From: Rudanella paleaurantiibacter | GTDB taxonomy: Bacteria; Bacteroidota; Bacteroidia; Cytophagales; Spirosomataceae | Assembly (NCBI RefSeq): GCF_009184635.1 | Contig: NZ_WELI01000003.1 | Coordinates: 744,001 to 808,000, forward strand | DNA: 64,000 bases | Direction: 5' to 3' | Part shown: piece after piece, positions 47,526 to 64,000 of the stretch | How the letters are laid out: each line of letters begins with the position of its first letter | How positions within the stretch are numbered: the first letter of the stretch is position 1 | Notes under the pieces: generated by a model | Told to the model about the DNA's origin: nothing | Seen by the model: the letters and a program-made list of their open reading frames with translations, nothing else | The model's database searches: none | Program-made: the position numbers and the translations under genes

Positions 47526-47543
47526 CTCCTAAATTTCACCTCC

Positions 47544-48488
47544 ATGCAACACCTCCTTATTCTGATCGGTATCAGCGGCAGTGGGAAATCGACGTTTGCC
47601 CGGCAGTTTGTGCAGGATAAACCCAACTACCTGCGCCTGAACCGCGACGAGCTGCGCCGAAGCGTACTGCCGGTTTCGCTGGGGGAATACTGGAAGTGGG
47701 ACGAAAAGCGTAAAAATCGCATTGAACGGCTGGTGTCGGACCTCGAACAAACCGCCCTCCACTCGGCGCTCGATGGAGGCTGGAATGTGGTTATGGACAA
47801 CACGCACCTGCGCGCCCGGTATATTCATGAGTTGCTGAAACGGGTGGAAAGCCGCGAAATTGAAGTCACGTTCCGGCTGCTGGAGGTACCGCTCGATGAA
47901 GCCATTCGGCGCGATGCCAACCGACCCGACTCCGTGGGCGAAACCGCTATTCGGGAGCAGTCTGAGCGCCTGAAACAGTTTCGGAAGCAGTTCGACGTGG
48001 GGCAACGGCTCATCTTCCCCAAAGCAAACCCGGTGCCGGTACCCACCGTTCAGAGCAGCAATCTGCCTAAGTGTATTCTGGTTGATATTGACGGAACAGT
48101 CGCCAAAATTCATGACCGCTCGCCCTTCGACTGGCTCAAAGTGGGCCGCGACAAGCCCAACCCGCCCGTGCTGAACGTGGTGCGGGCCATGCACGAGGCC
48201 GGGTACGCCATCATTTTTATGTCGGGCCGCGACAGCCTCGCCCGTCCCGAAACAATCAACTGGCTTTGGCGACACATGGGCTGGCGCGAAGGCACCGATT
48301 ATCAGCTGTTTATGCGCAAACAGAACGATATGCGCAAAGACGCCATCGTAAAACGCGAACTGTTCGACGCCCACATCCGGGGTCGCTATTTCGTTGAAGT
48401 AATCCTCGACGACCGCGATCAGGTGGTAGCCCTCTGGCGTCGCGATTTGGGTCTCCCCTGCTTTCAGGTCGACTACGGCAACTTTTAA
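47544..48488 (+). CDS. Polynucleotide kinase-phosphatase, T4 Pnkp type
   Basis: 314 residues in two parts. The P-loop kinase has Walker A GISGSGKST (about 8-16), and RLNRDELRR near residue 32. The HAD phosphatase part (about 170-314) has the nucleophile in VDIDGTVAKIHDR (about 175), and ILDDRDQVVALWRR at its end. The order kinase then phosphatase is that of phage T4 Pnkp, which heals 5'-OH/3'-phosphate RNA or DNA ends before ligation. No ligase gene is next to it, so it may work with a distant RNA or DNA ligase. Probably cytoplasmic. Confidence 0.88.
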   Translation: MQHLLILIGISGSGKSTFARQFVQDKPNYLRLNRDELRRSVLPVSLGEYWKWDEKRKNRIERLVSDLEQTALHSALDGGWNVVMDNTHLRARYIHELLKRVESREIEVTFRLLEVPLDEAIRRDANRPDSVGETAIREQSERLKQFRKQFDVGQRLIFPKANPVPVPTVQSSNLPKCILVDIDGTVAKIHDRSPFDWLKVGRDKPNPPVLNVVRAMHEAGYAIIFMSGRDSLARPETINWLWRHMGWREGTDYQLFMRKQNDMRKDAIVKRELFDAHIRGRYFVEVILDDRDQVVALWRRDLGLPCFQVDYGNF

Positions 48489-48490
48489 AC

Positions 48491-48527
48491 AGACGAAGGG
48501 CCTCGCCATTGGCGAGGCCCTTCGTCT
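48491..48527. terminator. Bidirectional hairpin terminator
   Basis: 17-base perfect arms (48491-48507 and 48511-48527) with a 3-base loop between the kinase gene end and the convergent giant surface gene. Confidence 0.8.
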
Positions 48528-48550
48528 TATAGGTAGTCGATGCCCGGTTT

Positions 48551-51500
48551 TTACTGCCGAACCACCTTCACTGTTTTCTGTCCGTTGGGCGTACTCACCT
48601 GTAGGAAATACATCCCGACCGAACGGCCCAACTGCACCCGGCGGGTTTCGGTAGCCCCAGCCTGCTCAACCAGTTGATCGCTCACCAGCTGACCCGTAGC
48701 GTCGGCCACGCGCAACCGCAGCGAACCGCCAGCGGCCCCGCGTACCACAACCTGCACGACATCGGCCGAGGTCGGGTTGCCCATCACGGTCACGTCCAGC
48801 GCAGCAGACGCTTCGGCATTGGCCAGACGACCGGGTGCTCCACCGCTGCACACCGCTTTGAAATCCCAGCTGTAGCTTACCTCACTGGCCGGATTCCCCA
48901 CGTAACGAGCCTGAAGAGCAAATGGCTGTGCATCGGAAAAAGGCCGCACCGTGTAAGGCCCAGCCACCGTCGACCAGTCGGTGATACCCACCGCCCGGAA
49001 CTCAACCGGCTGCCCGGTACCGCCCGTGGTATTGAAGGTAAATGCCCCCGTCGAGCAGTTGTAGGTAGGCGCAACAAGCGCCAGCGGTGCCGGTTGTGTG
49101 GGGCTAACAGGCGTAGTGGCCGTGCCGCTAATCAGAATAGCGAAACTCACCGACGACGACAGGTTGCCCGGATCGGTAGCCGACACGGTCAGGCCAAGAA
49201 CTCCGCTTTGGCTCGGTGTTCCCGAAATAGTGCGCGAGCCTGCATTAAACGACAGGCCGTTGGCCGGTAAGCCCGTAGCCGTGTACGTGAGTACATCGGC
49301 GTTGGGATCAGTAAAGGCAGGCACCACAAACGTAAACGGAACGCCTACCGTAGCCGACTGCGGGCCCACGGCTGGCGGCACAGGTGCGCCATTGACCGGT
49401 GGTGTGCCCGAGCAGAACGCCCGGAAATCGAACGTCCGGTTGAGCGTAACGCCGTCTTGCTGCACCCGCAGAATCACCGTCGAGTTGTTCGGATCGTTTA
49501 CAATGGCGGCATCAATAAACTGCACTGGGTTACCCGAGGGCACCGTTACGAACACAATAGAGTACAACAAGGGCGAGCCTGAGCCCCCGGCCGTCTGGAA
49601 CGTTACCTGACGCGTAGCACAGTTATACAGCGGAGCCAGCAGGGTCAGGCTGGTGGGTGCCACGCCCGTACCCGAAGGCGGTGCTGTAGTTGTGCTCGAC
49701 GGTGGGCTTACCGGATCGGGGTTTTGCGTGCAGAACTGACGGAAATTGAACGACAGCGGCTGGGCCATCTGGCCATCCTGCGAGGCCCCGATAGTAACAA
49801 TGCCCGAACTGTTGGGGTCGAGCCGAACACCGGCTTCGATAACACCTGTGGGGCTCGTAGCCGACGACCGTTGCACGCCAATGGCCGTGAATGTGATAGG
49901 CGAACCGCTGCCCCCACTCGTACGGAAGGTGATCTGACCGGTTGCGCAGTCGTACAGCGGAGTCAGCAACGTAAGCGGGCTGCCCGGCGTGACCGGCGGG
50001 TTTTCCGTTGGCGGGGCCAACACACCCCGTACCGTCAGGCGAATCTCGTCGGTATCGTCGTCGTAGTTGTTACAGATCGCATTGTCGAACACCGAATCAT
50101 GGTCGAACTGATCGGCGCTTTTAATTTCGGCCTGCATCCGCAAAGCCGTGTTTTCGGGAGCCGTTACCGAGGCTGTAAACACAAACTGAGCCGTAGCGTT
50201 GGCGGCAATACTACCCGCTGTAAACGTCAGCTCACGGCTTTCGGTGTTGTAGTTTACGCCGGGCGTGCTGCTGCTCACGTACGACAGGCCCACCGGCAAC
50301 GTAGCGCGGGCAATTACGTTGGTAGCCACCTGCGGACCGAGGTTATTCTTGATCCCAACCCGAATGGTAACGACTTCGTTTTGCGCGGGCGTTGTGTTGC
50401 TCACACTCATATTCCCGAACAGCTCCACATCGGCTCCGGCATTGGTAGGCACATTGATACGGGTATCGATGCTCTGTGTGTCGTCTTCGCCGTTGCAGAA
50501 ACCATTTCCGTGCGGGCTATCGGGATCGTTGTTATCGGCTGACACAATCTCCCAGTACGTATAATACTTGTTGGCGTTCGATGCCGTGCTGGTAGTTGGC
50601 GTAGGCGGAACCGTGGCATAGAAATACAGCAACCGACGCTCGCCCGGAGCCAACCCATCCACGTGTAGCATTACCCGACCGGTGCCCGCATCAAAGGTGG
50701 TGCCGGGCGTAGTGGGTGTCATGGTCCAGGTGGTCGAGGCCGGGTCGGTAGTGGGGCTATTGTCGGTCGTGTAGCCCGACCCAGCGGGCAGTTGCACCGC
50801 AATGTGGATGTTGGTAGCCGGGGTGCTGTCTTCGTTCAGCACGTGGGTCACGTAGCGCACCCGCTCACCGGGCGCGGGCGTCCGGCGGCTCACGTCCACT
50901 TTAGGCAAGGCCAAATCGACCGTGGGGAAAGGGTTCTCAGGCAGGTTGATTGTCGCAGTAACAGGGGTTTCGGTACTACGGCAACCCGCATCCGACACGC
51001 AAATAGCGCTGTAGTTGTAGAATCCCGAAGCCGAGGGGCTAATCAATACACTCCCCTTGGTACCGTCGGTCCACTCAGGGGTACCCATAATACAACTCGC
51101 CGTGAGAGTTACTGATGTTCCATCGGTCGTGGTAAACGAGGCCGGATTACCCGTTACCGTGGGGGCTTTGGGCTGCGCTTCGATCAACAGGGTGCCAGCT
51201 ACGGATTCGATCAGCAAGCCAGCAAGACGCGCTGTTCCATCCGGCACACAATCCACCGTGTAGGAGAATACCCCCGCTACCGACCCATCAACCCCGTAGG
51301 TACTTTGTAGCAGAGCCGACCCACCGGCCGGGGTTATTTGCGGAACAAAAGCCGTGGGGCAACTTGCCGTTATACTCAACGGGGTACCCAAACAGGCAGT
51401 CAGGTTCGGGGCAGGGCTTACCGTAGGCCGAATAGGGGCCGGTAACACCTGGATAGTCACTTCAACCTCACTACTCCTGCATCCCCCTCCAGACGACTGG

Positions 51501-52066
51501 CAGGCTACGTAGTACCACACATCCTGCGGACTGGACGGGGCCACTACTGTTCGGATGGAGCCCGCATCCGGGTCGTCCGCCCAAACCGCCGTTGAACCCG
51601 TTGGACAGGTGGCCGTCAGCGAAAAGCTGGCATTTACCTCCACCGTTCCGCTGGCCGGATTACTCACCACAACCGGATCGCTGGGGGCATCGATGCCATA
51701 AATCGTAAACTCGGTTGAGCTGCTCTCCTGAGCTGCGTTGGTGCAGGTAAAGGTGTAACTTTCTACGCCCGGATTCACGTTGTAGATCACCAGAAATCCG
51801 TTGGACCCCGATGCCGTGCGGCTCTGCGGTCCACTGTACGATGCCGTTGTGTTGACCGGGCAACTGAATTCGATTCCCCGCTCGGTGCCACCCACACAGA
51901 GCGACAAAGTGCTGGGTCCGTCGATTGTGGGCGAGGTAGGGCTTGTTTCAATAGCTGCCGATAGCGTTTTGGGCGGATCGGCAGCCAGGGCGGTACTGCA
52001 AAGTGCCAATAGACAGCTTACGCATACAATCCAGCACCGGATGACTGACGTAATGGTTCTATTCAT
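48551..52066 (-). CDS. Giant T9SS-sorted surface protein with DUF11 and Ig-like repeats
   Basis: 1171 residues. Signal peptide cleaved after TALAA (about 29). Ig/PKD-like segments (about 30-380), two DUF11-like domains (about 380-560, DVSRRTPAPGERVRYVTHVL; about 560-690, SNTTPAQNEVVTIRVGIKNN), three copies of a C-rich repeat (LTLLTPLYDCATGQITF; LTLLAPLYNCATRQVTF; LALVAPTYNCSTGAFTF), a putative Ig domain (about 915-1000) and a T9SS C-terminal domain (ALDVTVMGNP to VKVVRQ). It is most likely a cell-surface or adhesin-like protein exported by T9SS. The repeats suggest internal duplication. Confidence 0.9.
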   Translation of the reverse strand: MNRTITSVIRCWIVCVSCLLALCSTALAADPPKTLSAAIETSPTSPTIDGPSTLSLCVGGTERGIEFSCPVNTTASYSGPQSRTASGSNGFLVIYNVNPGVESYTFTCTNAAQESSSTEFTIYGIDAPSDPVVVSNPASGTVEVNASFSLTATCPTGSTAVWADDPDAGSIRTVVAPSSPQDVWYYVACQSSGGGCRSSEVEVTIQVLPAPIRPTVSPAPNLTACLGTPLSITASCPTAFVPQITPAGGSALLQSTYGVDGSVAGVFSYTVDCVPDGTARLAGLLIESVAGTLLIEAQPKAPTVTGNPASFTTTDGTSVTLTASCIMGTPEWTDGTKGSVLISPSASGFYNYSAICVSDAGCRSTETPVTATINLPENPFPTVDLALPKVDVSRRTPAPGERVRYVTHVLNEDSTPATNIHIAVQLPAGSGYTTDNSPTTDPASTTWTMTPTTPGTTFDAGTGRVMLHVDGLAPGERRLLYFYATVPPTPTTSTASNANKYYTYWEIVSADNNDPDSPHGNGFCNGEDDTQSIDTRINVPTNAGADVELFGNMSVSNTTPAQNEVVTIRVGIKNNLGPQVATNVIARATLPVGLSYVSSSTPGVNYNTESRELTFTAGSIAANATAQFVFTASVTAPENTALRMQAEIKSADQFDHDSVFDNAICNNYDDDTDEIRLTVRGVLAPPTENPPVTPGSPLTLLTPLYDCATGQITFRTSGGSGSPITFTAIGVQRSSATSPTGVIEAGVRLDPNSSGIVTIGASQDGQMAQPLSFNFRQFCTQNPDPVSPPSSTTTAPPSGTGVAPTSLTLLAPLYNCATRQVTFQTAGGSGSPLLYSIVFVTVPSGNPVQFIDAAIVNDPNNSTVILRVQQDGVTLNRTFDFRAFCSGTPPVNGAPVPPAVGPQSATVGVPFTFVVPAFTDPNADVLTYTATGLPANGLSFNAGSRTISGTPSQSGVLGLTVSATDPGNLSSSVSFAILISGTATTPVSPTQPAPLALVAPTYNCSTGAFTFNTTGGTGQPVEFRAVGITDWSTVAGPYTVRPFSDAQPFALQARYVGNPASEVSYSWDFKAVCSGGAPGRLANAEASAALDVTVMGNPTSADVVQVVVRGAAGGSLRLRVADATGQLVSDQLVEQAGATETRRVQLGRSVGMYFLQVSTPNGQKTVKVVRQ

Positions 52067-52403
52067 CGACTGATAGGAAGAGTAGGTTATTAATAAGCCC
52101 TAAGTTACATTAAATCCACATTAACAAAGCAAGTTCTTTCATATATAAACTACCCTTTATATCCTACTAATCAACTAGTTAAATCTGACTATCAATTACT
52201 TACCCAAACACCAACAATCAGGTTTAGTGTAGTATTTTTGTATTCGGTTTATATTTATCTGACAACCGGCCTTTCAGTACTGGCCATTCGGACTTCAGAC
52301 ACCGGACGTTAGACTTACTACCTTTATAGAGGGAGGTCCAACGTCTAATGTCCAGTACTGACAAACAGGCCTAACCGTCCTTCATTCACCGCTCGTATCC
52401 GTT
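52067..52403. promoter_or_regulatory. Intergenic region, AT-rich with an imperfect inverted repeat
   Basis: 337 bases between divergent genes. A CAGTACTGG core at about 52276 is mirrored near 52350. The left 170 bases are AT-rich and likely hold the surface protein promoter; no gene seen. Confidence 0.4.
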
Positions 52404-53135
52404 TTGTTTCGATTCAAACAGTTTACCATTCAGCAGCACCAGACCGCCATGAAGGTTTGTACCGACGCCTGTGTGCTGGGGGCCTACACGCACCCCGGCA
52501 CCACGCACGTACAACCGGCCCCCACCCTGCTCGATATTGGCACCGGCACCGGATTACTGGCTCTGATGGCCGCCCAGAATTACCCCACCGCCCACCGCAT
52601 CGACGCTGTGGAGCTCGACCCCGACGCCTTCGGGCAGGCCACCGACAACGTGGCCGCCAGCCCCTTTGCCAACCGCGTCCGGGTACATCAAACCGCCATT
52701 CAGGACTTTCGGCCCGGCTACCAGTACGATCTTATTCTGAGCAACCCCCCGTTTTTTACGAATCATCTCCGCTCGCCCGATGCGGCCACCAACCGGGCCC
52801 TCCATACCGAAACCCTGCCGTTTACCGATCTTGTAGCGGCCGCCAACCGGTTGTTGCATCCCGAAGGCGAGTGGTGGGTGTTGTTGCCCCCCTATGAGGC
52901 CGGGCAGCTCGAAACCCTCGCGCAGCAAGCCAACTTGTGGCCATTCAGCCGGTTGAGCCTGCGCCATAACGCCCGCAAGGCCCCGTTTCGGCACATTACG
53001 GGCTACCGCCGAAACCCCACCTCCCTACACACCGACACCCTGACGGTGTACGAATCCGACCCCGCCAACCCCGGCCGAGAAACGTACACCCGCCCCTTCC
53101 GCCAACTTCTAAGCCCGTTTTACCTTATTTTTTAA
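52404..53135 (+). CDS. tRNA1(Val) A37 N6-methyltransferase-like protein (TrmN6)
   Basis: 243 residues from a TTG start (MFRFKQFTIQQHQTAMKVCT), the normal N-terminus of this family. SAM binding by DIGTGTGLLAL (about 45). The catalytic NPPF motif of amino-methyltransferases is ILSNPPFF (about 112). It methylates A37 of tRNA-Val in E. coli YfiC. The TTG start would lower its expression. It precedes a glycosyltransferase gene by 14 bases. Confidence 0.88.
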   Translation: MFRFKQFTIQQHQTAMKVCTDACVLGAYTHPGTTHVQPAPTLLDIGTGTGLLALMAAQNYPTAHRIDAVELDPDAFGQATDNVAASPFANRVRVHQTAIQDFRPGYQYDLILSNPPFFTNHLRSPDAATNRALHTETLPFTDLVAAANRLLHPEGEWWVLLPPYEAGQLETLAQQANLWPFSRLSLRHNARKAPFRHITGYRRNPTSLHTDTLTVYESDPANPGRETYTRPFRQLLSPFYLIF

Positions 53136-53149
53136 GAACTTTGTGTTCT

Positions 53150-54121
53150 ATGTCTGACTTGCAATTAACCGTTCTGATCCCCCTCTATAACGAAGATGAG
53201 TCGCTGCCCGAACTGCACGACTGGATCGTTCGGGTGGTGACGGAGCATCGCTATACGTACGAAATCCTGTTTATCGACGACGGTTCCACCGACCGGTCGT
53301 GGTCGGTAATCGAACAGTTGGCCGCGCGCAACCCCGTCCATGTACGCGGGGTTCGGTTTGGCCGCAACTACGGCAAAACAGCCGCCCTCCAGGTGGGCTT
53401 CAAGGCCAGCCGGGGTAAGGTGGTGATTACGATGGATGCCGACCTGCAAGACAGCCCCGACGAAATTCCGGATCTGTACCGCATGATTACCCAGGATGGG
53501 TACGATCTGGTATCGGGCTGGAAGAAAAAGCGGTACGACCCCATCACCAAAACCCTGCCCACCAAGCTTTTCAACGGCGTATCGCGCTGGGTATCGGGCG
53601 TGGAGTTACACGACTTCAATTGTGGGCTGAAAGCCTACCGGCAGGCCGTGGTCAAATCGTTTGATCTTTACGGCGAGATGCACCGTAACTTACCCATTGT
53701 GGCCAAATGGAACGGGTTTGGGCGCATTGGCGAAAAAGTGGTGCAGCATCAGGCCCGCAAATACGGTAGCACCAAGTTCGGGCTCGACCGGTTTATCAAC
53801 GGCTTCCTCGACTTGCTCGTCATTGCGTTCATGCACCGGTTCAGCAAGCGGCCCATGCACTTTTTTGGGGGCTTCGGTACACTGTCGTTTTTTATCGGTA
53901 CGGTGTTGGCCTTTTACCTCATCGGGCTCAAACTGTACAATATTTCGCAGGGGCTCCGGTTCCGTAACGTTACCGACAACCCTCTGTTCTTCTTTGCTTT
54001 AGTGGCTATTATTCTGGGGGTTCAGCTGTTTCTGGCGGGGTTTGTGGGCGAGCTGCTCATCCGCCAAAATCATCATCGGCCCGAAGATTATTTGATTGCC
54101 GAACGAATCGAAACCGAGTAG
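53150..54121 (+). CDS. GT2 glycosyltransferase with C-terminal membrane segments
   Basis: 323 residues from ATG 53150 (MSDLQLTVLIPLYNE). GT-A fold with the DxD-like MDADLQDSPDE (about 96). Two C-terminal membrane segments (about 240-265 and 280-305) resemble GtrB/DPM1-type polyprenyl-phosphate sugar transferases, which load glucose or mannose onto the lipid carrier. It follows the methyltransferase closely. The sugar is not identifiable. Confidence 0.9.
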   Translation: MSDLQLTVLIPLYNEDESLPELHDWIVRVVTEHRYTYEILFIDDGSTDRSWSVIEQLAARNPVHVRGVRFGRNYGKTAALQVGFKASRGKVVITMDADLQDSPDEIPDLYRMITQDGYDLVSGWKKKRYDPITKTLPTKLFNGVSRWVSGVELHDFNCGLKAYRQAVVKSFDLYGEMHRNLPIVAKWNGFGRIGEKVVQHQARKYGSTKFGLDRFINGFLDLLVIAFMHRFSKRPMHFFGGFGTLSFFIGTVLAFYLIGLKLYNISQGLRFRNVTDNPLFFFALVAIILGVQLFLAGFVGELLIRQNHHRPEDYLIAERIETE

Positions 54122-54175
54122 TCTGGCGCCCTAAATACTTACTAATTTGTTACTAATCCCTACCCCCTACCAACC

Positions 54176-54628
54176 ATGATTCAGATTCGCCCCGGCGTTG
54201 CGGCCGACATTCCGCAGGTGTTTGATTTAGTGATGGAGTTGGCCGTCTACGAAAAAGCGGCCGATCAGGTAACCAATACCCCCGAGCAAATGCTGCAGGA
54301 CGGCTTCGGCCCCAACCCTTCATTTGGTTTTCTGGTTGCCGAAGACGACGAAAAAAACCAGATAGTCGGCATTGCCCTGTACTACTACCGTTACTCGACC
54401 TGGAAAGGCAAGCGCCTGTACCTGGAAGACATCATCGTGACCGAAGATTACCGGGGTATGGGCATCGGCAAACTCCTCCTCGACGAGACCATCGTGACGG
54501 CCCGCCAAACCAACTGCACCGGCATGATGTGGCAGGTACTTGACTGGAACAAACCCGCCATTGGGTTCTACCAGCAGTTTGGCACCCGCTTCGACGATGG
54601 CTGGACAAACTGTCACCTCGATTTTTAG
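54176..54628 (+). CDS. GNAT-family N-acetyltransferase
   Basis: 150 residues. GNAT fold: IRPGVAADIPQVFDLV start, YRGMGIGKLLLDE (acetyl-CoA motif A, about 95-107), WNKPAIGFYQQFG (motif B). The pattern resembles diamine or spermidine acetyltransferases (SAT/PaiA). Substrate unknown. 55 bases after the glycosyltransferase. Confidence 0.9.
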   Translation: MIQIRPGVAADIPQVFDLVMELAVYEKAADQVTNTPEQMLQDGFGPNPSFGFLVAEDDEKNQIVGIALYYYRYSTWKGKRLYLEDIIVTEDYRGMGIGKLLLDETIVTARQTNCTGMMWQVLDWNKPAIGFYQQFGTRFDDGWTNCHLDF

Positions 54629-54663
54629 TTTAGCGTATACCCGTTCATCAACTCGCACGAGCC

Positions 54664-56142
54664 TTGTCACTCCCCTCCGATCACATCCGTCTTTTGTTTG
54701 GCCTCAAACTGCGTCAGCTTCGTATCGACAGAGGCTTGTCGGTGAGCGAGCTGGCACAGGCTTCGGGCATGGCTGTTTCGTACATCTCCGAAATCGAAAA
54801 AGGCCGCAAATACCCCAAAGCGGATAAAATTTCGGCCCTGGCCACGGCCATGAACGTGGATTACGATACACTGGTATCGCTGAAACTGAGCAAAAAGCTC
54901 GAACCCATCTCGGACCTGCTTCGCTCCAAGTTTCTGACCGAAATCCCGCTCGAACTGTTCGGCATCGACCCGGCCGATTTGCTGGAGTTGCTCGCCGAAG
55001 CCCCCGCCAAGGTGAGTGCTATGATTCGGACGTTTATGGACATTGCCCTCAGCTACAACATGTCGGTTGAGCGGCTGTACATGACCATGCTCCGGTCGTA
55101 TCAGGAACTACACGACAACCATTTTGAGGACATTGAGGCCGATGCCGACCGGTTTCTGGCCGAGTTTGCTCCAGCCAATGCCCCCGTAACCGAAGGCCTG
55201 CTGACTAACCTGCTCAAAACGCGGTACAACGTCACGATTCAGCCCTTCGACCCCGATACCCAGCCCGATTTGGCCACGCTGCGGTCGGTGTACCGGCCCG
55301 AAAGTCGGGTGCTGCACCTCAACCGCCACATGGCCCCCGGTCAGCGGGCCTACGTGCTTGCCCGCGAGGTTGGGTTTCAGTACCTCAACCTCAAAGTTCG
55401 GCCCTACGCCTATGCTTTTGTCGAAGCCGAGTCGTTTGAGCAGGTTCTTAACAATTATAAGGCTTCATACTTCGCCGGGGCCATTCTGATTCGGCGCGAG
55501 CAGCTCATTGCGCGGCTGAGCGAGCTGTTTGCCCGCCCAACCTGGAGCAACGACGATTTCCTGGCCCTGATTGGGGAGTGCGGCTCAACCCCGGAGCGTT
55601 TTTTTTACCGGCTCAGCAACGTACTGCCCAAATACTTCGGCATCGACCAATTGTTTTTCTACCGGTTCAACAACACGGCGGGGGAGAATATTTTCCACCT
55701 CACCAAAGAGATGCACCTCTCACGCACGCAGGGCCCGCGCGGCATGGTCGATGAGCACTACTGTCGGCGCTGGATTGCGCTGACCATTTTGCAGGAGCTT
55801 TCGTTTCTGCAACGCCACAAACAGTTCAGCGGGGCCGTGTGCCGGGCCCAGCTTTCAACCTACGCCGACTCCCGGCAGCAGTACCTGATTGTGTCGGTTG
55901 CCTACCCCCACCGAACCACCGAGCAGGAAAACATGAGCGTTTCAATGTGTTTTGTGGTCAACGACGCCCTGCGGAGCAAAATGCAGTTTCTGAGCGACCC
56001 CGCCCTCTCGCACCGAATCGTGAACGAAGCCTGCGAACGTTGTGGCATTTTCGACTGCAAAGAGCGGGTCTCGGCCCCCATTGTGCTCCAGAAACGCCGA
56101 CAACAGGAGGCCACTAAAGCCGCCATGAGCCAGTTGCTGTAA
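54664..56142 (+). CDS. XRE-family regulator with DUF2083-like C-terminus (ScfR/PrpC-like)
   Basis: 492 residues from a TTG start. An N-terminal HTH (about 8-65; LSVSELAQASGMAVSYISEI) is followed by a long helical ImmA-like middle and a C-terminal DUF2083-like region with CERCGIFDCKER (about 462-473), a Cys-rich site that may bind metal. Relatives regulate short-chain fatty acid or propionate metabolism. The last 282 bases exist a second time at 58102-58383 with 21 differences. The complete gene ends at a long hairpin (56141-56216). Confidence 0.9.
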   Translation: MSLPSDHIRLLFGLKLRQLRIDRGLSVSELAQASGMAVSYISEIEKGRKYPKADKISALATAMNVDYDTLVSLKLSKKLEPISDLLRSKFLTEIPLELFGIDPADLLELLAEAPAKVSAMIRTFMDIALSYNMSVERLYMTMLRSYQELHDNHFEDIEADADRFLAEFAPANAPVTEGLLTNLLKTRYNVTIQPFDPDTQPDLATLRSVYRPESRVLHLNRHMAPGQRAYVLAREVGFQYLNLKVRPYAYAFVEAESFEQVLNNYKASYFAGAILIRREQLIARLSELFARPTWSNDDFLALIGECGSTPERFFYRLSNVLPKYFGIDQLFFYRFNNTAGENIFHLTKEMHLSRTQGPRGMVDEHYCRRWIALTILQELSFLQRHKQFSGAVCRAQLSTYADSRQQYLIVSVAYPHRTTEQENMSVSMCFVVNDALRSKMQFLSDPALSHRIVNEACERCGIFDCKERVSAPIVLQKRRQQEATKAAMSQLL

Positions 56143-56216
56143 AGATAGAAGCCCGCAAGGGGCCTCATGTGCTTGAACAGGCTTTTACATGAGACCCCTT
56201 GCGGGCTTCTATCTTT
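56141..56216. terminator. Large hairpin at the end of the XRE regulator
   Basis: 30-base arms (56141-56170 and 56187-56216) with one mismatch, starting inside the TAA stop. It marks the junction between the regulator gene and the low-GC cassette. Confidence 0.8.
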
Positions 56217-56231
56217 ATGCAGAAAAAGGGT

Positions 56232-56633
56232 CTATTGAACCGAAAACCTAATTCGGAGCTGACCAACCGTTGACTTTGGGGCTGTAACTTCAATAATCAA
56301 CTCTTCATTACGCCCATAATAGTCGCTTTGTCTTTTACTCGGCAGGTCATTACCCGCATACGTTCCTTTGGGAATTTCCTCTGTGAAAATACCAGCCGCA
56401 TTCCCGGCTGTTGGGTTTTTATACCGAACCCGGACAGTAACCGGCTCACTGATAGTCCCCTGTAACCAGTACGTAATCATATTATTTCGGTGGTCGGCTG
56501 ATGTGATCTCTTTACGCATGGGTACGCTAAAGTCTGCTATCAACACCTCCGTTTCTACCGGATCAATTGAGGAAATGCAACCCGACACGACCAAAAGCAA
56601 GGCCGTAATTGTGAAAACCGCAACGTTTTTCAT
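56232..56633 (-). CDS. Small lipoprotein of the low-GC cassette
   Basis: 133 residues with a lipobox VVSGC (Cys about 19). A single beta-sandwich-like domain follows (TISEPVTVRVRYKNP, LRIRFSVQ). Not recognised. It lies 8 bases after the larger lipoprotein gene, so the two are probably co-transcribed. It may be a partner or protective protein for it, which is inferred from the pairing only. Confidence 0.7.
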   Translation of the reverse strand: MKNVAVFTITALLLVVSGCISSIDPVETEVLIADFSVPMRKEITSADHRNNMITYWLQGTISEPVTVRVRYKNPTAGNAAGIFTEEIPKGTYAGNDLPSKRQSDYYGRNEELIIEVTAPKSTVGQLRIRFSVQ

Positions 56634-56641
56634 GTTGGTTA

Positions 56642-57880
56642 TTATTGACAGGGTACGTCATCAACCCGGTTATCATTCCGGGAACCGTCTCTGTTATTTA
56701 ATGGAAGAGAAACTAGAAAAGTACTGCGATAATCTGCCGAATAATTCCAGTCAGTCAAAGCGCCATAATCATTCCCATAGTAATTGAGAACTTCATTACG
56801 ATAATGCTTCCGATTTGATGTACAAGCGTATTCTTTTAGGTAATTTAGAATTCGATCGAATCCCGGCCTGTACGTCACAATGCCAAACCAACCTGTTCGA
56901 ACTTCATTATACATAAAGGTACGACCTACCATGTTGTTGTGAAGGTCCATAGCAGTCCTGTCACCAGCAATATCATCACTAGTTGGAATTGTACCTGTAA
57001 TCGTGTAGCCATCATCGAACAAATAACCTAAAGCATACCTTGGACAACCATCGCATACAGAAACCGTTTCATGAGCAGTAGCAAACATTTTCATTTTGTC
57101 TAACGCTACCCATTTATTACCCCTAAACTCAATAATCCACCAAACCCCCAAAGCATTCCAAGCCGCATGTTTAAACGCGTTTGCATTATGATTATCGTTA
57201 TTACCTGAGCCACCAAAAAAAGAAGGAGATTCTATAATACTTTCTATCATAGTTCGTGCATTATCTACAGCCTGTGCAGATGTAGGATTCCAAGCAATCA
57301 ACGCGTTTTCAAGCGGGTTACTGCTTAGACTAGAGGCCATCTTCCCTCCTTTTTTAGCCTTCATTCTTTTGGCTAACTCAGGGGCTATATCAAGTTTAAT
57401 TAAGTCGGAGTAATAGTCAAAAATAAACTGGCCATTTTTGTCAACATCCTGCTCAGTCTTTATATCAGGAAAGTCTTTGCGTATGCGAGCCAAGTCATTT
57501 GCTCGCAAAGGGTGCCGACTCAGATCAGGGTATTTGCTGGATGCATTGATAATAAGCTGCATGATTTCCTCTTGCGTCAACAGCTCCCAACCTGATCTAT
57601 CCTGCCCTGCTATACGTGCAGTAGCTTTGCTTTGCCCCATCATATTCTGATCAAACCAAGCCATATATTGGTCGAACGTTTGACCAAATATTTCCGTGGG
57701 AACACCAGCGGGAACCCGCATATGCACCTCCTTCATTGAAATATAGCGGTCATCGGAAGTAGTTGTAGCTAATAAGTCGGCCGTTTCTAACTCAGGTTTA
57801 CAGGAGATGAGAGTTACGCTCAGAAGAATAAACTGAAAAAAAAGTTTAACTTCACAAATAGAAAAAACTTTATTTAACAT
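56642..57880 (-). CDS. Lipoprotein with a DUF6973-like domain
   Basis: 412 residues, lipobox LISC (about 27). The C-terminal half holds FKHAAWNALGVWW (about 235), ATAHE (about 265) and AMDLHNNMVGRTF (about 305), an H-x-x-WN, HE, DLHNN array that resembles DUF6973-type domains with likely metal-binding residues. The catalytic role is not established. The AT-rich codon use, the tandem repeat 8 bases upstream of the start and the partner lipoprotein suggest a switchable, horizontally acquired envelope function. Confidence 0.7.
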   Translation of the reverse strand: MLNKVFSICEVKLFFQFILLSVTLISCKPELETADLLATTTSDDRYISMKEVHMRVPAGVPTEIFGQTFDQYMAWFDQNMMGQSKATARIAGQDRSGWELLTQEEIMQLIINASSKYPDLSRHPLRANDLARIRKDFPDIKTEQDVDKNGQFIFDYYSDLIKLDIAPELAKRMKAKKGGKMASSLSSNPLENALIAWNPTSAQAVDNARTMIESIIESPSFFGGSGNNDNHNANAFKHAAWNALGVWWIIEFRGNKWVALDKMKMFATAHETVSVCDGCPRYALGYLFDDGYTITGTIPTSDDIAGDRTAMDLHNNMVGRTFMYNEVRTGWFGIVTYRPGFDRILNYLKEYACTSNRKHYRNEVLNYYGNDYGALTDWNYSADYRSTFLVSLPLNNRDGSRNDNRVDDVPCQ

Positions 57881-57887
57881 AACAGGT

Positions 57888-57983
57888 GGTTGTTTAGTCC
57901 GCCTGCGGGTTGTTTAGTCCGCCTGCGGGTTGTTTAGTCCGCCTGCGGGTTGTTTAGTCCGCCTGCGGGTTGTTTAGTCCGCC
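57888..57983. repeat. 20-bp tandem repeat before the DUF6973-like gene
   Basis: Unit GGTTGTTTAGTCCGCCTGCG with four full copies and a partial fifth, beginning 8 bases upstream of the ATG at 57880 (minus strand). It occupies the leader or ribosome-binding region. Copies are identical, so length change by slippage is likely. Confidence 0.85.
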
Positions 57984-58101
57984 ACAAATATAAAGTTATG
58001 TACAAGACAGGCACAAATGCATTTATTTACCGGTTAGTTACATAACTATATCTACGATAACATACTGAAATACAATGTTTACACTTTCAACTTGATCGGA
58101 T

Positions 58102-58383
58102 TACGCCGACTCCCGGCAGCAGTACCTGATTGTGTCGGTGGCCTACCCCCACCGAACCACCGAGCAGGAAAACATGAGCGTTTCAATGTGTTTTGTGGTC
58201 AACGACGCCCTGCGCAGTAAGATGCAGTTTCTGAGCGACCCCGCCCTCTCGCACCGGATTGTCAATGAAGCCTGCGAACGTTGTGGCATTTTCGATTGCA
58301 AAGAGCGGGTGTCGGCCCCCATTGTGCTCCAGAAACGTCGGCAGCAGGAGGCTACCAAAATCGCCATGAGGCAATTGCTTTGA
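58102..58383 (+). pseudogene. 3' fragment of the XRE/DUF2083 regulator gene
   Basis: Matches 55861-56142 at 261 of 282 positions. The first 112 bases differ once; the rest differ at 20 positions. Only two amino acids change (Ala to Ile, Ser to Arg) and the stop differs (TGA against TAA); the others are silent. This is the mark of two functional genes that diverged before coming together. An internal ATG at 58174 could be used, but the fragment is only about 93 codons and lacks the HTH. Confidence 0.85.
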
Positions 58384-58421
58384 GGGGATCGATAAAATCT
58401 GGCCATAATAACATACTACCC

Positions 58422-58458
58422 AAAAAGTGAGACACCCAAAAGCGTCTTACTTTTTTTT
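58422..58458 (+). terminator. Intrinsic terminator after the duplicated fragment
   Basis: 12-base arms (58422-58433 and 58444-58455) with one G-T pair and a T8 run (58451-58458). Confidence 0.7.
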
Positions 58459-58571
58459 GATATGCCTGTTACTTTTCTCTGAAGTGGAAGTATTAACAGA
58501 TGCTTGGGCACAAGTACAAGTACCTGACGTCAGGCCCGAGACTATATCCACATGCATTTAGAAATGCCCCT

Positions 58572-58618
58572 GAGGTCGGAAGCGCTAATCGAAATCCTGT
58601 CGATTAGCCTCCGACCTC
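58572..58618. terminator. Hairpin after the 845-residue gene
   Basis: GAGGTCGGA and GCTAATCG arms (58572-58591) pair with 58600-58618 with two bulges. It lies just past the stop at 58626 on the minus strand. Confidence 0.6.
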
Positions 58619-58625
58619 GTTGGTT

Positions 58626-61163
58626 TTAAGCACTTACCAATGCCCGATATTCATCCATATCACCCCACAAGCGTTCCACCAGATCGTTCAGATCTGCATG
58701 GCCCAGCTCGGTAGGATCGTCGTAGGCCGAAACCAGAAGTACATGATCCCGAATCAGATCGCGGAAGTCCCCTTTCAGTTTTATCAAATAAACGTCATCA
58801 ATGCCATGCTGTGCTAAAAACTGCACTAATCGCTCCGGCCTTGACCCTTTTGCTCCCAATTCTCTGACCAACGCGCCCCCAAACCGAAGCGTAGCGAATC
58901 CGTGCCGAAAGGATTCGAAAAGGTAACTCTTTATATCGTTACGCAAATCCACCATCTTTTCGTCTTCGTGGCCGGAAACCAATCGTTGTTGACCATAGTA
59001 CTTTGCCAAATGACAGGCAGCAAAAAAGGCTGTCCGGCGATCTTGCACCCGCCGGGGTCGAAACGGATGGTTAGGCGTTTTAGGTAGCCGAATCAGCCGG
59101 TAAGCCTCCCCTTCGAGTGTCGAAAGCAAACCAGCCAACTGCCTGTCGTACGAATCGAAACCTACTCGGGTTTGATTTTGCTGCTCTACCGACATTTGCC
59201 GGTGAAAGCGAATCGGGAGGGGGTCAATCGGAACCAGACCTTCATCTGTCGGCGGAGAGGGCTTTAGCACCGCCACCATCGCCATAACTCGGTCCTGATC
59301 TACGAGTGTAGCCATACCAAACAGGTGCCGAATCTGATCGTGACGCTCGATATGCCCTTTATCATCGCACAAGGATACCAGCAACGAGCCTTGCAGCAGC
59401 TGATTGGTAGGTAAGCCAAATTGTATCCGTAACAAATGATCGCGGCTTACCTCAGCGATCCCCTCTCCGGAGCGACCATTCCCCGACAACAGGGCCTTCC
59501 CCGACCGGTTTATTTCCAGCCGATACCGAAATATCTCCGGGTAGTCATTGGGGTTTCGGCGTTCGGTCATGTACAAATCATACGTACCCGCCAGCCGGGC
59601 CAGGGGGCGCGCCCGCGTGATATTTTTGAGTTCTTCCACCGCCTGACTGTCGGTGGCGGCTGCCAACCCCTGCTGGCCACTCAGGTACTGCCCTACCTCC
59701 TGATACTGAGAACTTTGACAAAAGGTAAACAGATCGAGGTCGGCCACGATTGGGTCGGCTTGTTTCTGCAACACAACCCGCCCCGACGTGGGGTGCGTAA
59801 AGCTGTGATCAAAACCAGCGTACACGCCCAGCAGGTAGCGATTATCGGTAAGGCCACCCTCCAGAAAATAGTGCAGCCGGTAGGCTCCATTTTCGTAGTC
59901 AAAATCCAGATCGACCCGAATACCGTGGTTAAGGGGGCTTGCAAAGCCCTGCAAACGGGGATGCTTATGCTGAGTCGGGTACCGGCAATCGACCCGGCCC
60001 GCCCGCGAGATTTTGCAGGAGAACAAGGTCACATGCCCCGTAATTGGATGCACAAAAAAGCCTTGATACGAATCGGCAACCTCGGCCAGTAACCAGGCGT
60101 TTTTGGCACGAGGTAATGCATCAAACGATTCAACAACCCCATCAACGGGCACATCGACCCGCTGCCCCAGCAAAAAATGAAACACATCGTCGGGGATGCT
60201 TTCGGGGTTCTGAATATACTGCCGGATAAGGTCTTCGCACGCTTCGACCGATGCCTGCCGCCACCATACCATGAGCCCCGCAGCCGGATGAGCCTGATTA
60301 AACTTACCACTCAAACTGGCAAAAGCGCCCACATAGATCGGAGCCTTGTCGCTCGTCCAGTCGAGGGTAATCTGTGTCCAGACACCGGTCCGTTTCTGAC
60401 CGGGGGCGTCTACCAGTCGTAACGACAACATACGCCCGTCCGATGGGTTGCTTTCGGTCACTACTGTTTTATGCGCCCCGTCGCTGTACCAGTACGTGAT
60501 TTCGGTTTCCACCCACGAATCATCGAGCGAGTTAGCCCCGGCCGATGGTTGTACCAGAGCATACCCTACTTTCTCTTTAGTCTTTTTACGGTGTGGACGC
60601 CAGTAGAACGCCAGAAAACACGGTTGCCCCGGCGTGGGGGCCGGGCTACCGCCCCCCGACGGTTCTGTTTCTACCTGCCTGGGCTTGCGGCCCAGCCCTT
60701 CTTTTTTCCGAAGTCTCCCCGCATGCGTATCGATAGGCTGATTCTGATTCAGAAAAACAAGCTGCCCGTTCTGCTCACTTACCGATAACCGCCCGCCCGA
60801 TTTGGCTATCAGGTAATGCACCAGCGCTATAGTCCGAAACTTGAGCCACTTAATGGGGCGCAACCTACTTTGTTCAATGTTGGGGTTTAGCAGATAACTC
60901 AAATTGGTGGTACTGATGGTGTCAGGTTCCTGATGGCTGATATACAGCAACGATTTATAGGGTTCCCTGGCCAGATCGGAGTAAATGGTTTTCTGACTTA
61001 TCCGTAGTGCCAGTACAAAAGCCCGCAAACCGAGTACCACCTCTCTGCGGTTAGGATGGTCGAAAAATGAAGCTGAATCCGTATCGTCGGGTAGGTAGCG
61101 TTGAAGAAGCTCTTCAACCGTTTCATCCCGATGAACACCTTCATCAGTAAACGTTTTTGTCAT
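58626..61163 (-). CDS. Large unrecognised cytoplasmic protein
   Basis: 845 residues from ATG 61163; a longer start at 61217 is in AT-rich leader DNA. No signal peptide or membrane segment. Residues 1-165 are helical and charged. The middle (about 185-690) appears to hold three beta-rich domains of about 130 residues each, with similar closing motifs (YVGAFASLSGKFNQAHP; LGVYAGFDHSFTHPTSG; HLFGMATLVDQDR). The last 150 residues are helical and acidic (RLWGDMDEYRALVSA). No catalytic motif found. A ligand-binding or scaffold role is a guess. It is divergent from a small lipoprotein gene and a CHAT protein gene. Confidence 0.7.
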   Translation of the reverse strand: MTKTFTDEGVHRDETVEELLQRYLPDDTDSASFFDHPNRREVVLGLRAFVLALRISQKTIYSDLAREPYKSLLYISHQEPDTISTTNLSYLLNPNIEQSRLRPIKWLKFRTIALVHYLIAKSGGRLSVSEQNGQLVFLNQNQPIDTHAGRLRKKEGLGRKPRQVETEPSGGGSPAPTPGQPCFLAFYWRPHRKKTKEKVGYALVQPSAGANSLDDSWVETEITYWYSDGAHKTVVTESNPSDGRMLSLRLVDAPGQKRTGVWTQITLDWTSDKAPIYVGAFASLSGKFNQAHPAAGLMVWWRQASVEACEDLIRQYIQNPESIPDDVFHFLLGQRVDVPVDGVVESFDALPRAKNAWLLAEVADSYQGFFVHPITGHVTLFSCKISRAGRVDCRYPTQHKHPRLQGFASPLNHGIRVDLDFDYENGAYRLHYFLEGGLTDNRYLLGVYAGFDHSFTHPTSGRVVLQKQADPIVADLDLFTFCQSSQYQEVGQYLSGQQGLAAATDSQAVEELKNITRARPLARLAGTYDLYMTERRNPNDYPEIFRYRLEINRSGKALLSGNGRSGEGIAEVSRDHLLRIQFGLPTNQLLQGSLLVSLCDDKGHIERHDQIRHLFGMATLVDQDRVMAMVAVLKPSPPTDEGLVPIDPLPIRFHRQMSVEQQNQTRVGFDSYDRQLAGLLSTLEGEAYRLIRLPKTPNHPFRPRRVQDRRTAFFAACHLAKYYGQQRLVSGHEDEKMVDLRNDIKSYLFESFRHGFATLRFGGALVRELGAKGSRPERLVQFLAQHGIDDVYLIKLKGDFRDLIRDHVLLVSAYDDPTELGHADLNDLVERLWGDMDEYRALVSA

Positions 61164-61300
61164 ATGGGTGAGAATATAGTGGGACTGAAAATTGGCTGAA
61201 AATAAAGTGATTATCAATGAATAAACGTGAAAATAAAGTGATTTGTAACTGATAATTTAAATATTTATATTTAAGGAAGTCAACCGGGACCTTTGCATGG

Positions 61301-61474
61301 ATGAAACCCATATGCAAGGTCTTGTTTGTCATGGCATTCGGAATGAGTGCCTGCCGTGAGGTGGCTCCTCAGCCTCAACCCCAAACAGAGGATCAGGTTC
61401 GTGTGCGCCCCACCGGGCCAACGCCAATCGCAAAGCCCGATAGTACGGCTAGCCGGCCCCGGTACGACTACTAA
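61301..61474 (+). CDS. Tiny lipoprotein
   Basis: 57 residues from ATG 61301. The lipobox is MSAC (about 17), then a Pro-rich tail (VAPQPQPQTEDQ, RPTGPTPIAKP). Not recognised. It has its own terminator (61489-61530) and lies in the gap between the divergent large genes. Too short to be sure, but codon use, signal and terminator support it. Confidence 0.55.
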   Translation: MKPICKVLFVMAFGMSACREVAPQPQPQTEDQVRVRPTGPTPIAKPDSTASRPRYDY

Positions 61475-61488
61475 GTAACCCTTCAGTA

Positions 61489-61530
61489 AAAACCACTATC
61501 CCGGCAGTCGGGGTAGTGGTTTTTTTTTAT
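61489..61530 (+). terminator. Intrinsic terminator
   Basis: 15-base arms (61489-61503 and 61509-61523) with one mismatch, followed by a run of T. It ends the tiny lipoprotein transcript just before the CHAT gene. Confidence 0.8.
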
Positions 61531-61576
61531 GAATTTAGGCGGCAATATTCCTTACCACCCTACCTACCGGCAACTC

Positions 61577-64000
61577 ATGAAACGTACTATTCTTGTTTGG
61601 TTGATACTAAGCGTACAGGCTGTTTGGGCGCAACCCCGTCAGGTAGTTATCAGCCAGATAAAAGCGCTGATTGCGCAAGGAGAGAAAGCCGAAAGTACCC
61701 ATGACAACACCCGGGCCATTGGGTTCTACCAACAGGCCCTCAACCTTAGTCATAAGGCACAACTACCGGCCTACTCCATTCTGCTCTGTGTAGATATTGG
61801 CATTCTGAAAAGCCAGTTAACGCAGGTGTCCGAAGCCCTTACCTACCTCCGGCGGGCCAATGAGTACTACCATACCTTCCGCGAAAAATCAGTACGGCGT
61901 CGGTTCATGATTGACTATAGCTTTGCCATAGTCCATATCGGGTTAACCCAACTTGATTCGGCAACGCACTATTTCAACCAGTGTAGTTACCTCATCAAAA
62001 CCCACAACGACTCACTCAAATCCTTTAACCACTACCTCGACCTCTACTACCTGGAGCGGTCGTATCTGGCGCAGGAAACCATGAACTTCACCGAAAGCAT
62101 TGCGCTCAACGAGGAAGCCATCCGACGCTACAAAGCCCGAAACAAAACCGACGACGGGTCGGGGAATCATTACAACTCACTCGGCAAGTCGTATGCAGCC
62201 TTGGGGCAGTTTGCCCGTGCCGACTCCGCCTTTAGCCGCGCGGCTACTCTGTACGCCAGCACACCTTTGTTTGAGGCTATTATTCTTTGCAACCTTACCG
62301 ACTCCCAGGTGCAGCAAGGCCGGGCGTCGGCGGGGGCGCAAACCCTCCAACGCGCCCAACAGGCTTACAAACGCTACCAGCGCCAAACCGGCGAAACGGA
62401 TGCCGATGTGGAGCGTCGGCTTCGGCAAAACCGGGCGGGGGTATATCTGGCTCAGGGCAATCTACCCCGCGCTGAAGCGGCCTTTAACGAACTGCTCACG
62501 TTCTGCGCCAAATACTTTCCAATGCCCTCTGGCTTCCGGGTCGATGCGTACCTGAGCATGAGCCGCCTGTACGAGCAACAGCGTAACCCGGCGGCCGTAC
62601 GCAAGGCCCTCGATGCCGCAGTGCGCGAAGCCTACGGGCCACGGGCTACCTCACCCGAACAGGCCGTATTGCCACGCTCCCTGGTATCGGCCCTGACGGC
62701 ACGGGCCGATTTCCTGGCCCGTACCCCGGCCCCCTCGCCAACCGAACGGGCCGCCAACGCCCGCGAGGCTCTGACCACCTACGAACAGGCTATCGACCTG
62801 GTAGCCTCGCTCCGGCGGGGTGCCTTGTTGCCCGAATCAAAGGCTTTTCTGGCCGCCAAAGCCGCTCCGCTGTTCGAACCGGCGTTATCGCTCTGCTACG
62901 AACTGGCGCAGCAGCCTACCCAAACCGATGTTTACACCCGCAAAGCATTCGCCCTTTTCGACCGATTTCAGAACAGCCTGCTGGCCGATGCCCAGCTTGA
63001 GCAACGGCTCATGCGGCAGTACTTGCCCGCCCCGATGCAGGCCGAATGGCGTCGGCTGAGTCAACGACTGAGTCAGCTCCGGCTCGTGCGCGAAACGGGC
63101 AACCCTGCCACCGAAGCCGAGTTAAACCAAACCGAGAAAAGCCTGATTGAATGGCAGCAACGCACCGACCGTACGCACCCGCAATACCGGCAGGCACTGA
63201 GTAGGGTAACACAACTGTCGATGACCGATTACCAGACGGTGCTGCAACCAGGCGAAGCGTTGCTATGCTACGCGCCAACCCCGGCCGGGTTGCTGGTGCT
63301 TGCGCTACACAAACGGGGCGCTTTGTTTCGGCGATTGCCGGTAAGCCCGGCCGGGCTGGATCAGGCCCTAAGCCGTTACCGGGCCGAGGTGAGCCGTAAC
63401 CCCGGTATTGTAGGCAGTTACGACAACCGCCCCGGTCAGGCGGTGTACAAGCTGTTGCTGGCCCCAATTCGGGCTCAGTTACCCGACCTTACCGCCCTGA
63501 CTGTGGTACCGCCCCCCAACTGGCAAATACCATTCGAGGCCCTCGAAACCCAGGCGGGGCGTTGGCTTCTTCAAGACGTTGACGTAGGGTATCAGTTTAA
63601 CCTGTCGGGGCGGCTCCTCCCCCCTGACCCGGTGCAAACCCGGCACGAAGCCCTTAGTTTTGCTCCGTTTGCCGCCGATACCGGCCGCAGCCCGTTTCGG
63701 ATGCCCAACGGATTTTTGCTCAGGTCGCTGCGGGCCTCTGCCGAAGAGGCCACCCTCCCCGACGGCCAAAGCTGGCTCGGCAAAGCGGCTTCCAAACAAC
63801 GCTTTTTAGAAGATGCACAACACACCCGGTTGTTGCTGGTTACGACCCATACCTATCCGGGGCCCCGCGAAACGGCACTGGTGTTTCACCCGGCAGAGAC
63901 CGACTACCTGCTTTACCCCTCTGAACTTCAACACGCCGATTTACGGTCGGTAGGGTTAGCGGCCCTGTCGGCCTGCGCCACCGAAAAAGGAGTTCAGTTA
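61577..64000 (+). CDS. TPR-CHAT protease-like protein (partial, runs off the window)
   Basis: At least 808 residues from ATG 61577. A signal peptide (MKRTILVWLILSVQAVWAQ) is followed by several TPR units (about 30-290, for example AIGFYQQALNLSHKAQ). The CHAT domain begins near residue 560. The catalytic His is likely in LLLVTTHTYPGP and the Cys in LAALSACATEKG at the window end. CHAT proteins are caspase-like proteases or their inactive relatives, often in signalling or defence; exported TPR-CHAT proteins are common in Cytophagales. The C-terminal tail is outside the window. Confidence 0.88.
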   Translation, partial: MKRTILVWLILSVQAVWAQPRQVVISQIKALIAQGEKAESTHDNTRAIGFYQQALNLSHKAQLPAYSILLCVDIGILKSQLTQVSEALTYLRRANEYYHTFREKSVRRRFMIDYSFAIVHIGLTQLDSATHYFNQCSYLIKTHNDSLKSFNHYLDLYYLERSYLAQETMNFTESIALNEEAIRRYKARNKTDDGSGNHYNSLGKSYAALGQFARADSAFSRAATLYASTPLFEAIILCNLTDSQVQQGRASAGAQTLQRAQQAYKRYQRQTGETDADVERRLRQNRAGVYLAQGNLPRAEAAFNELLTFCAKYFPMPSGFRVDAYLSMSRLYEQQRNPAAVRKALDAAVREAYGPRATSPEQAVLPRSLVSALTARADFLARTPAPSPTERAANAREALTTYEQAIDLVASLRRGALLPESKAFLAAKAAPLFEPALSLCYELAQQPTQTDVYTRKAFALFDRFQNSLLADAQLEQRLMRQYLPAPMQAEWRRLSQRLSQLRLVRETGNPATEAELNQTEKSLIEWQQRTDRTHPQYRQALSRVTQLSMTDYQTVLQPGEALLCYAPTPAGLLVLALHKRGALFRRLPVSPAGLDQALSRYRAEVSRNPGIVGSYDNRPGQAVYKLLLAPIRAQLPDLTALTVVPPPNWQIPFEALETQAGRWLLQDVDVGYQFNLSGRLLPPDPVQTRHEALSFAPFAADTGRSPFRMPNGFLLRSLRASAEEATLPDGQSWLGKAASKQRFLEDAQHTRLLLVTTHTYPGPRETALVFHPAETDYLLYPSELQHADLRSVGLAALSACATEKGVQL

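Follow-up and report, generated by a model that had tools for sequence, protein, structure and literature searches.

A 64-kb stretch of the Rudanella paleaurantiibacter genome, called the window here, carries a regulator gene whose 3' end occurs twice, on either side of a cassette of two genes (Table 1). The duplication of the regulator tail is confirmed. The copies are direct (55861-56138 and 58102-58379, spacing 2241), and taken to their stop codons they comprise 282 bases each, of which 261 are identical and 21 differ, the same count as in a preliminary description made from the letters of this DNA. Nearly all of the differences are silent, as had been claimed there, and the encoded tails differ at two amino acids (A/I and S/R). 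Among the direct repeats of at least 40 nt listed for the 64-kb window, this pair stands alone besides a 20-bp tandem array and one 43-nt pair. The copy that ends the intact gene is termed the host copy and the one beyond the cassette the orphan. By Pfam, the regulator contains HTH_3 and Peptidase_M78 (IrrE N-terminal-like) domains; no DUF2083 model is listed at E values up to 1, and the DUF2083 part of the original label is not supported. Among four proteins compared with PADLOC and PHROGs, only the regulator is matched, and its PADLOC match is confined to the first 93 residues.

The differences between the two tails are distributed as a mosaic. Host copy and orphan differ at 1 of 113 positions in bases 1-113 and at 20 of 169 in bases 114-282 (Fisher p = 3e-4), a rise that the preliminary description had placed after the first 112 bases. 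At the rate of bases 114-282, the probability of at most one difference in 113 bases is 1e-5.

Table 1. Features around the duplicated regulator tail in the window, followed by the repeats at five further gene-tail loci
Feature	Position	Strand	Basis or observation
Regulator, XRE-type HTH + Peptidase_M78-like, 492 aa, kept whole	54664-56142	+	Open reading frame, Pfam, G001 orthologue
Host tail part 1, recipient lineage	55861-55973	+	112/113 bases same as orphan
Host tail part 2, read as donor DNA	55974-56142	+	20/169 bases differ from orphan
Hairpin from the stop codon, 31-nt arms, possible two-way terminator, probably incoming DNA	56140-56217		z -11.5
Small lipoprotein, 133 aa, candidate immunity protein	56232-56633	-	Open reading frame, lipobox
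DUF6973 lipoprotein, 412 aa, candidate toxin	56642-57880	-	Pfam PF22322, E 1.2e-13; profile match to 9uu0
Tandem repeat, 20-bp unit, 4.8 copies, immediately before the DUF6973 gene start codon	57888-57983		
Seam between incoming DNA and orphan tail, read as an illegitimate join	58101-58102		8-base match CTTTCAAC
Orphan copy, read as the displaced native regulator tail	58102-58383	+	Repeat comparison, flank alignment
Native right flank: spacer plus convergent gene for an 863-aa protein (58626-61217)	58384-61217	-	Aligned with G001
L070: UDG-superfamily gene tail, 81 bp			3/81 differences
L114: ComM-like Mg-chelatase gene tail, 70 bp			3/70 differences
L126: sodium:solute symporter tail, 304 bp			10/304 differences
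L151: UPF0029 gene tail, 177 bp			Divergent-identical-divergent copies
L120: FBP aldolase and HxlR tails, 296 and 296 bp			Aldolase tails 8/296 differences

A candidate toxin-immunity pair between the tails

The cassette holds two genes only, one for a DUF6973 lipoprotein and one for a small lipoprotein, and its composition is foreign: GC content is 42.5% over the whole stretch, compared with 56.9% in the regulator and 52.9% in the next gene. The 412-aa protein scores 51.2 bits for PF22322 (gathering cut-off 27) and carries an N-terminal lipobox. In an alignment of 25 DUF6973 proteins, hand-chosen from the 73 found, C27, H238, E271, D312, and N315 are invariant, the lipobox cysteine among them. 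Used as a profile, this alignment matches Protein Data Bank (PDB) chain 9uu0 at E = 1.4e-9 with the motif aligned, and the second-best PDB match has E = 0.047. The 9uu0 record names maltose-binding protein joined to a "Bacteroides fragilis T6SS effector" (T6SS, type VI secretion system). This effector and DUF6973 have the motif NAF+H ... HE ... D..NN in common; the N-terminal lipobox of the window protein is a point of difference. The AlphaFold model of the single window protein has a mean pLDDT of 33, and a comparison of this protein with viral contigs gave no match. The 133-aa lipoprotein matches no Pfam family at its cut-off.

Related loci are organized alike. The 73 DUF6973 genes with an open reading frame (ORF) come from 74 loci, and 66 of them are followed by a same-strand ORF of at least 80 aa, some perhaps being chance frames. 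By a crude rule, a lipobox is present in 31 of those 66 following ORFs and in 35 of the 73 DUF6973 proteins. At locus L158 of genome G004, DUF6973 forms the tip of a 2465-aa protein, which we take to be Rhs-like, and a 126-aa lipoprotein follows. From the effector match, the tip of the 2465-aa protein, and the small gene that follows, we infer that the two cassette genes encode a toxin and its immunity protein, a reading drawn from their sequences.

An empty site in a congener

The congener G001, whose regulator orthologue is 98% identical in amino acids, has the empty site, with a single tail copy and no cassette. Window positions 47543-56138 and 58101-64000 align to two G001 stretches whose overlap is one tail long. 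The alignments of G002 and L205-L211 likewise contain a single tail and nothing that matches the cassette. The preliminary description had asked for such a comparison and had named, as the finding that would tell against it, the presence of both copies in relatives with no empty site among them; the congener shows one copy, and an empty site exists.

The flanks indicate which 3' end is native, a second point on which relatives were to be consulted. The 200 nt past the orphan stop give 172 matches in 202 columns against G001, and the 200 nt past the host-copy stop give 109 matches in 226 columns. Because only the orphan's downstream flank matches G001, the orphan is read as the native tail and the host copy as running into incoming DNA. 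A decision by divergence alone was given up, G001 being nearly equidistant from the two tails, and the flank was used in its place. Over the first 113 bases, 12 and 11 sites separate the two copies from G001, and 1 site separates them from one another. Over bases 114-282, the differences are 16/169 between host copy and G001, 18/169 between orphan and G001, and 20/169 between host copy and orphan; by these counts, the host tail therefore passes into the tail of a lineage roughly as far removed as a different species.

Movement of the pairs and recurrence of the scar

Such pairs move. G001 has a pair of its own, 52% and 30% identical to that of the window, located elsewhere, with a same-strand gene on one side and an S41-peptidase gene on the other. 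No direct repeat is present at the edges of this pair. The corresponding place in R. paleaurantiibacter is empty, the aligned flanks being 47 bp apart there and 2132 bp apart in G001. Each species thus has a pair where the other has none.

The arrangement in the window also recurs. A search of 222 family genomes for DUF6973 gave matches in 65, of which 61 exceed the cut-off, at 96 places in all. Self-comparison of 74 loci covered 76 of the 96 places and left out 20 (12 over the cut-off and 8 below). Direct repeats of at least 60 bp and 85% identity, 1-6 kb apart, straddle 9 of the 74 DUF6973 loci and none of 40 control midpoints (one-sided Fisher p = 0.017). The controls were 40 regions of 19.9 kb taken from 20 family genomes at two fixed contig fractions each, with one region shifted as a DUF6973 gene occupied it. 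Some repeat pair occurs in 3 of the 40 control regions, and off-centre pairs occur in 7 of the 74 DUF6973 loci. With equal tolerance the result is unchanged (9/74 at none, 0/40 at 200 bases).

Six of the nine straddled loci, among them the window, have a protein-gene tail as their repeat, a different one each time; at the five outside the window its length is 70-304 bp (Table 1). At L070, L114, L126, L151, and the window, pair and host gene converge, with the small gene of the pair on the tail side; at L070, a 244-aa gene lies between the small gene and the host-gene tail, and at L120 both regularities hold toward the orphan HxlR tail. Empty sites were compared for the window (G001) and for L070, where the UDG and sulfatase genes of the congeners G021 and G081 are near neighbours, the pair is absent, and other genes occupy the gap. 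Its return beside related cassettes makes the scar more than an isolated accident.

The other three straddled loci are not counted as gene-tail cases. The repeats of L067 contain a DDE_Tnp_IS1595 transposase frame, L124 has a tRNA-Met gene and an integrase arm domain, and DUF6973 at L158 is the tip of the 2465-aa protein, which has DUF6443.

Origin of the duplication

Comparisons with published work, here and below, draw on excerpts of the cited sources. That the incoming DNA recombined by homology on one side only, within the gene tail, and was joined illegitimately on the other has about an even chance of being the correct account. Linear DNA from a related lineage, perhaps taken up by transformation, would have brought its own regulator gene end together with the convergent toxin-immunity pair. 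It would have paired by homology with the recipient's gene tail, presumably in a RecA-type reaction, and crossed over near repeat base 113, with the regulator left unbroken and now ending in the donor's tail. The other incoming end, upstream of the putative toxin gene, would have had no homology and would have been joined illegitimately 282 bases before the gene end, leaving the recipient's tail a second time behind the cassette as the orphan. One crossover with an all-native orphan predicts near-identity over 113 bases, shared differences from G001 included, and then 20/169. The mosaic fits such a switch from recipient to donor and supports the preliminary description, largely right in its proposal that DNA of a related strain, bringing its own gene end, entered by recombination and left the gene intact. 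The new mechanism also considered there is not needed, since homology-facilitated illegitimate recombination (HFIR) or a single crossover of a ligated circle would suffice. The 8 bases CTTTCAAC lie just upstream on both sides of the seam, a length that 7 of 5000 single-base shuffles reach. The genome has a ComEC-type gene, and such genes also match in 10 of 14 control genomes.

Several observations weigh against one-sided recombination. The clear one-sided mosaic is confined to the window; the differences at L070, L114, L126, and the L120 aldolase tails are too few or spread out, and the patterns at L151 and the L120 HxlR tails fit a circle better. Among the 59 genomes of the regulator search, set by eye against the coordinates of the DUF6973 survey, no donor with the pair adjoining the regulator was seen. 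The two tails lie at nearly the same distance from G001 (16 and 18 of 169), and only the flank indicates the native one. The seam match CTTTCAAC is offset by 10 and 1 bases. At L126:7234-8535, the orphan symporter tail stands in one frame with a transposase-like N-terminal part (Tnp_DNA_bind below cut-off), and because of this fusion the seam there may have another history, perhaps one shaped by an insertion sequence. HFIR is, moreover, rare in the laboratory (PMC5361080, PMC3240628).

The same layout would result from a circle holding the cassette and one regulator tail, either ligated or popped out of another strain's repeats, that entered by a single homologous crossover in the tail. This account is possible, if on the doubtful side. 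Ligation circularisation and single crossover of linear DNA have been reported in E. coli (PMC3240628), and at L151 divergence flanks a nearly identical tract on both sides. The L120 HxlR tails compared with G074 give the reciprocal pattern of a single crossover: of the differing sites up to base 221, G074 agrees with the orphan at 7 of 9, and at those from 227 to 290 it agrees with the host copy at all 14. The L120 aldolase tails, compared with six relatives, are ambiguous. In the window, however, the copies agree at 112/113 bases on the seam side and are 12% different on the other, whereas a diverged circle predicts divergence on both sides, and a conversion tract over the first 113 bases would be needed here. 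Gene 3' ends are classical att sites, as icd is for phage 21/e14, and the repeats could be att sites of a site-specific integration whose recombinase acted in trans or has been lost. L124 resembles such a case, with a 78-bp identical repeat overlapping the tRNA-Met gene and an integrase-type arm DNA-binding domain (PF17293, E 9.8e-17) encoded by a 72-aa frame. For the gene-tail loci this origin is improbable, however. An integrase-borne island at a gene 3' end has a recombinase gene and a common att core, and neither is found here: no integrase is present among the ten proteins scanned with Pfam from 47.5 kb to the window end or, by PHROGs, among four of those ten, as the preliminary description had it, and the six orphan tails have no 5-, 6-, or 7-mer in common with both strands counted. 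The repeats range from 70 to 304 bp and lie in different genes, and searches gave no match in a phage collection and one weak match, at 26%, in plasmids.

A tandem duplication of the tail that preceded the entry of the cassette, its copies later differing by mutation and partial gene conversion, would also result in two copies, and the 113 near-identical bases could be a conversion tract. It is nonetheless quite unlikely: bases 114-282 stand at between-species divergence and the first 113 do not, no tandem tail was seen in G001, G002, or L205-L211, and the borders of the cassette fall on those of the repeats, as at the loci of other species. The genome is a draft of 34 contigs, but an assembly artefact can be practically dismissed, with copies that differ by 7% and lie within an 812-kb contig and an arrangement that is found again in independent genomes.

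Relation to known systems

The arrangement in the window has published parallels. Insertion with long target duplication was described for restriction-modification genes of Helicobacter pylori by Nobusato et al. 2000 and is linked to such genes frequently, not obligatorily (PMC1643837, PMC3154945). As excerpted, that work likewise shows cargo with long copies of the target at its edges, recognized by comparing two strains, and both an empty site in a relative and long direct copies (278-282 bp) are found here. Unlike the H. pylori case, the cargo in the window is a probable toxin-immunity pair and not a restriction-modification system, and the copy is the tail of a neighbouring gene, with the intact gene ending in a diverged allele.

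For the displacement of T6SS effector modules, Kirchberger et al. 2017 proposed HFIR, in which one-sided homology anchors the effector-immunity DNA, the other end joins illegitimately, and parts of the old gene are shifted back (PMC5361080). L158, with DUF6973 at the tip of a giant protein, resembles such a displacement. The T6SS modules are anchored by conserved sequence upstream in the effector locus, whereas the anchor in the window is the tail of an unrelated adjoining gene. Homology confined to one end and a mosaic of donor and recipient at that end, by which HFIR is recognized, are seen in the window and not clearly at the other five gene-tail loci. HFIR has also been published for variable segments (PMC2884548), and a tandem duplication in pneumococcal transformation is a further relative of the mechanism (PMC3784515). 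The myxobacterial SitA/SitI pairs consist of a lipoprotein toxin and a downstream immunity gene, and the toxin domains named in the excerpted source are nucleases (PMC5562445). The likeness lies in the lipoprotein signal on the candidate toxin and the gene downstream. The literature searched yielded no paper using the word DUF6973, and narrow all-terms searches did not return the present combination, though papers pairing "long target duplication" with toxin and immunity exist.

The mechanism is thus known in kind, and the repeated use of the tails of neighbouring ordinary genes looks new. The DUF6973 pairs might, tentatively, be passive mobile cassettes that use a neighbour-gene tail as a targeting arm and a second tail to release a circle for a further round, free of any recombinase and with hotspots such as the HxlR-aldolase gap. 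If so, the tail of a passive cassette would steer recombination into the same gene of another strain while keeping that gene whole. The entry of toxin-immunity pairs into chromosomes without integrases is poorly understood, and the recurring scar suggests how such weapons can spread with no recombination enzyme of their own. In the window, a single event is legible at base level, with the start of the donor DNA, the crossover, and the displaced part. Its recurrence in different host genes leads to a testable rule, that an orphan gene tail be sought beyond the pair, by which transfers of this kind can be dated and traced in other genomes.

The HxlR-aldolase gap and other cargo

In G187 (L120:6059-12051), an asparagine synthase allele and a DUF6973 allele lie in tandem in the gap between the HxlR and FBP aldolase genes, connected by an aldolase tail and an HxlR tail that meet head to head. 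The HxlR gene of G187 is matched in 47 of 48 genomes of its genus, and the gap was inspected in the 15 best-matching genomes besides G187. It is empty in four (G188, G214, G201, and G097) and contains DUF6973 in four others (G108, G218, G184, where it is split, and G074, where it is decayed). Three genomes have two small genes in the gap, one of them a PIN-domain protein in G203; another of the three, G192, also has a 60-residue aldolase tail fragment and a large gene. The gap of G224 holds one 129-aa gene, and that of G086 runs to the contig edge. No aldolase was found within 12 kb of HxlR in G186 and G209, and G186 has a DUF6973 remnant and a small gene some kb away.

Two of the off-centre repeat pairs enclose other cargo, so the scar is not exclusive to DUF6973. 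At L147:11296-16442, the tail of a 598-aa gene is repeated 3.2 kb away, beside a DUF6973 pair, around a styrene-monooxygenase-like gene (Pfam) and a methyltransferase-like gene (by eye). At L107:1787-5314, two copies of a cyclophilin gene end (94 bp, 97%) enclose a 539-aa gene and two small genes with a 444-bp near-identical stretch in common.

Non-coding features and minor observations

The hairpin at 56140-56217 is very strong (-61 kcal/mol for 101 nt), and the 19-nt core of its arm has no other match with fewer than three mismatches in the genome. Across 54-62 kb, Rfam lists nothing at gathering score. The tandem repeat is absent elsewhere in the genome (21-nt pattern, at most two mismatches); about two units of it lie upstream of the DUF6973 gene of G001. 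Just upstream of the repeat in the window is a TATATTTG box, which we take to be a Bacteroidota promoter motif. The copy number of the repeat may tune the toxin gene. Beyond the orphan tail, the 863-aa gene has no match in Pfam, NCBIfam, PHROGs, or PADLOC at the thresholds used, and a gene with TPR and CHAT domains occupies 61529-64000 and continues past the window end.

The second DUF6973 locus of R. paleaurantiibacter (L063:7751-8708, on G000:C12) is decayed to a 111-aa frame with internal stops. The 176-aa gene that follows has been kept, is also present in G001 (L062), and looks like a retained orphan immunity gene. At L202:4845-6244, a split DUF6973 frame is followed by two related small lipoprotein-like genes, which suggests an immunity duplication beside a broken toxin.

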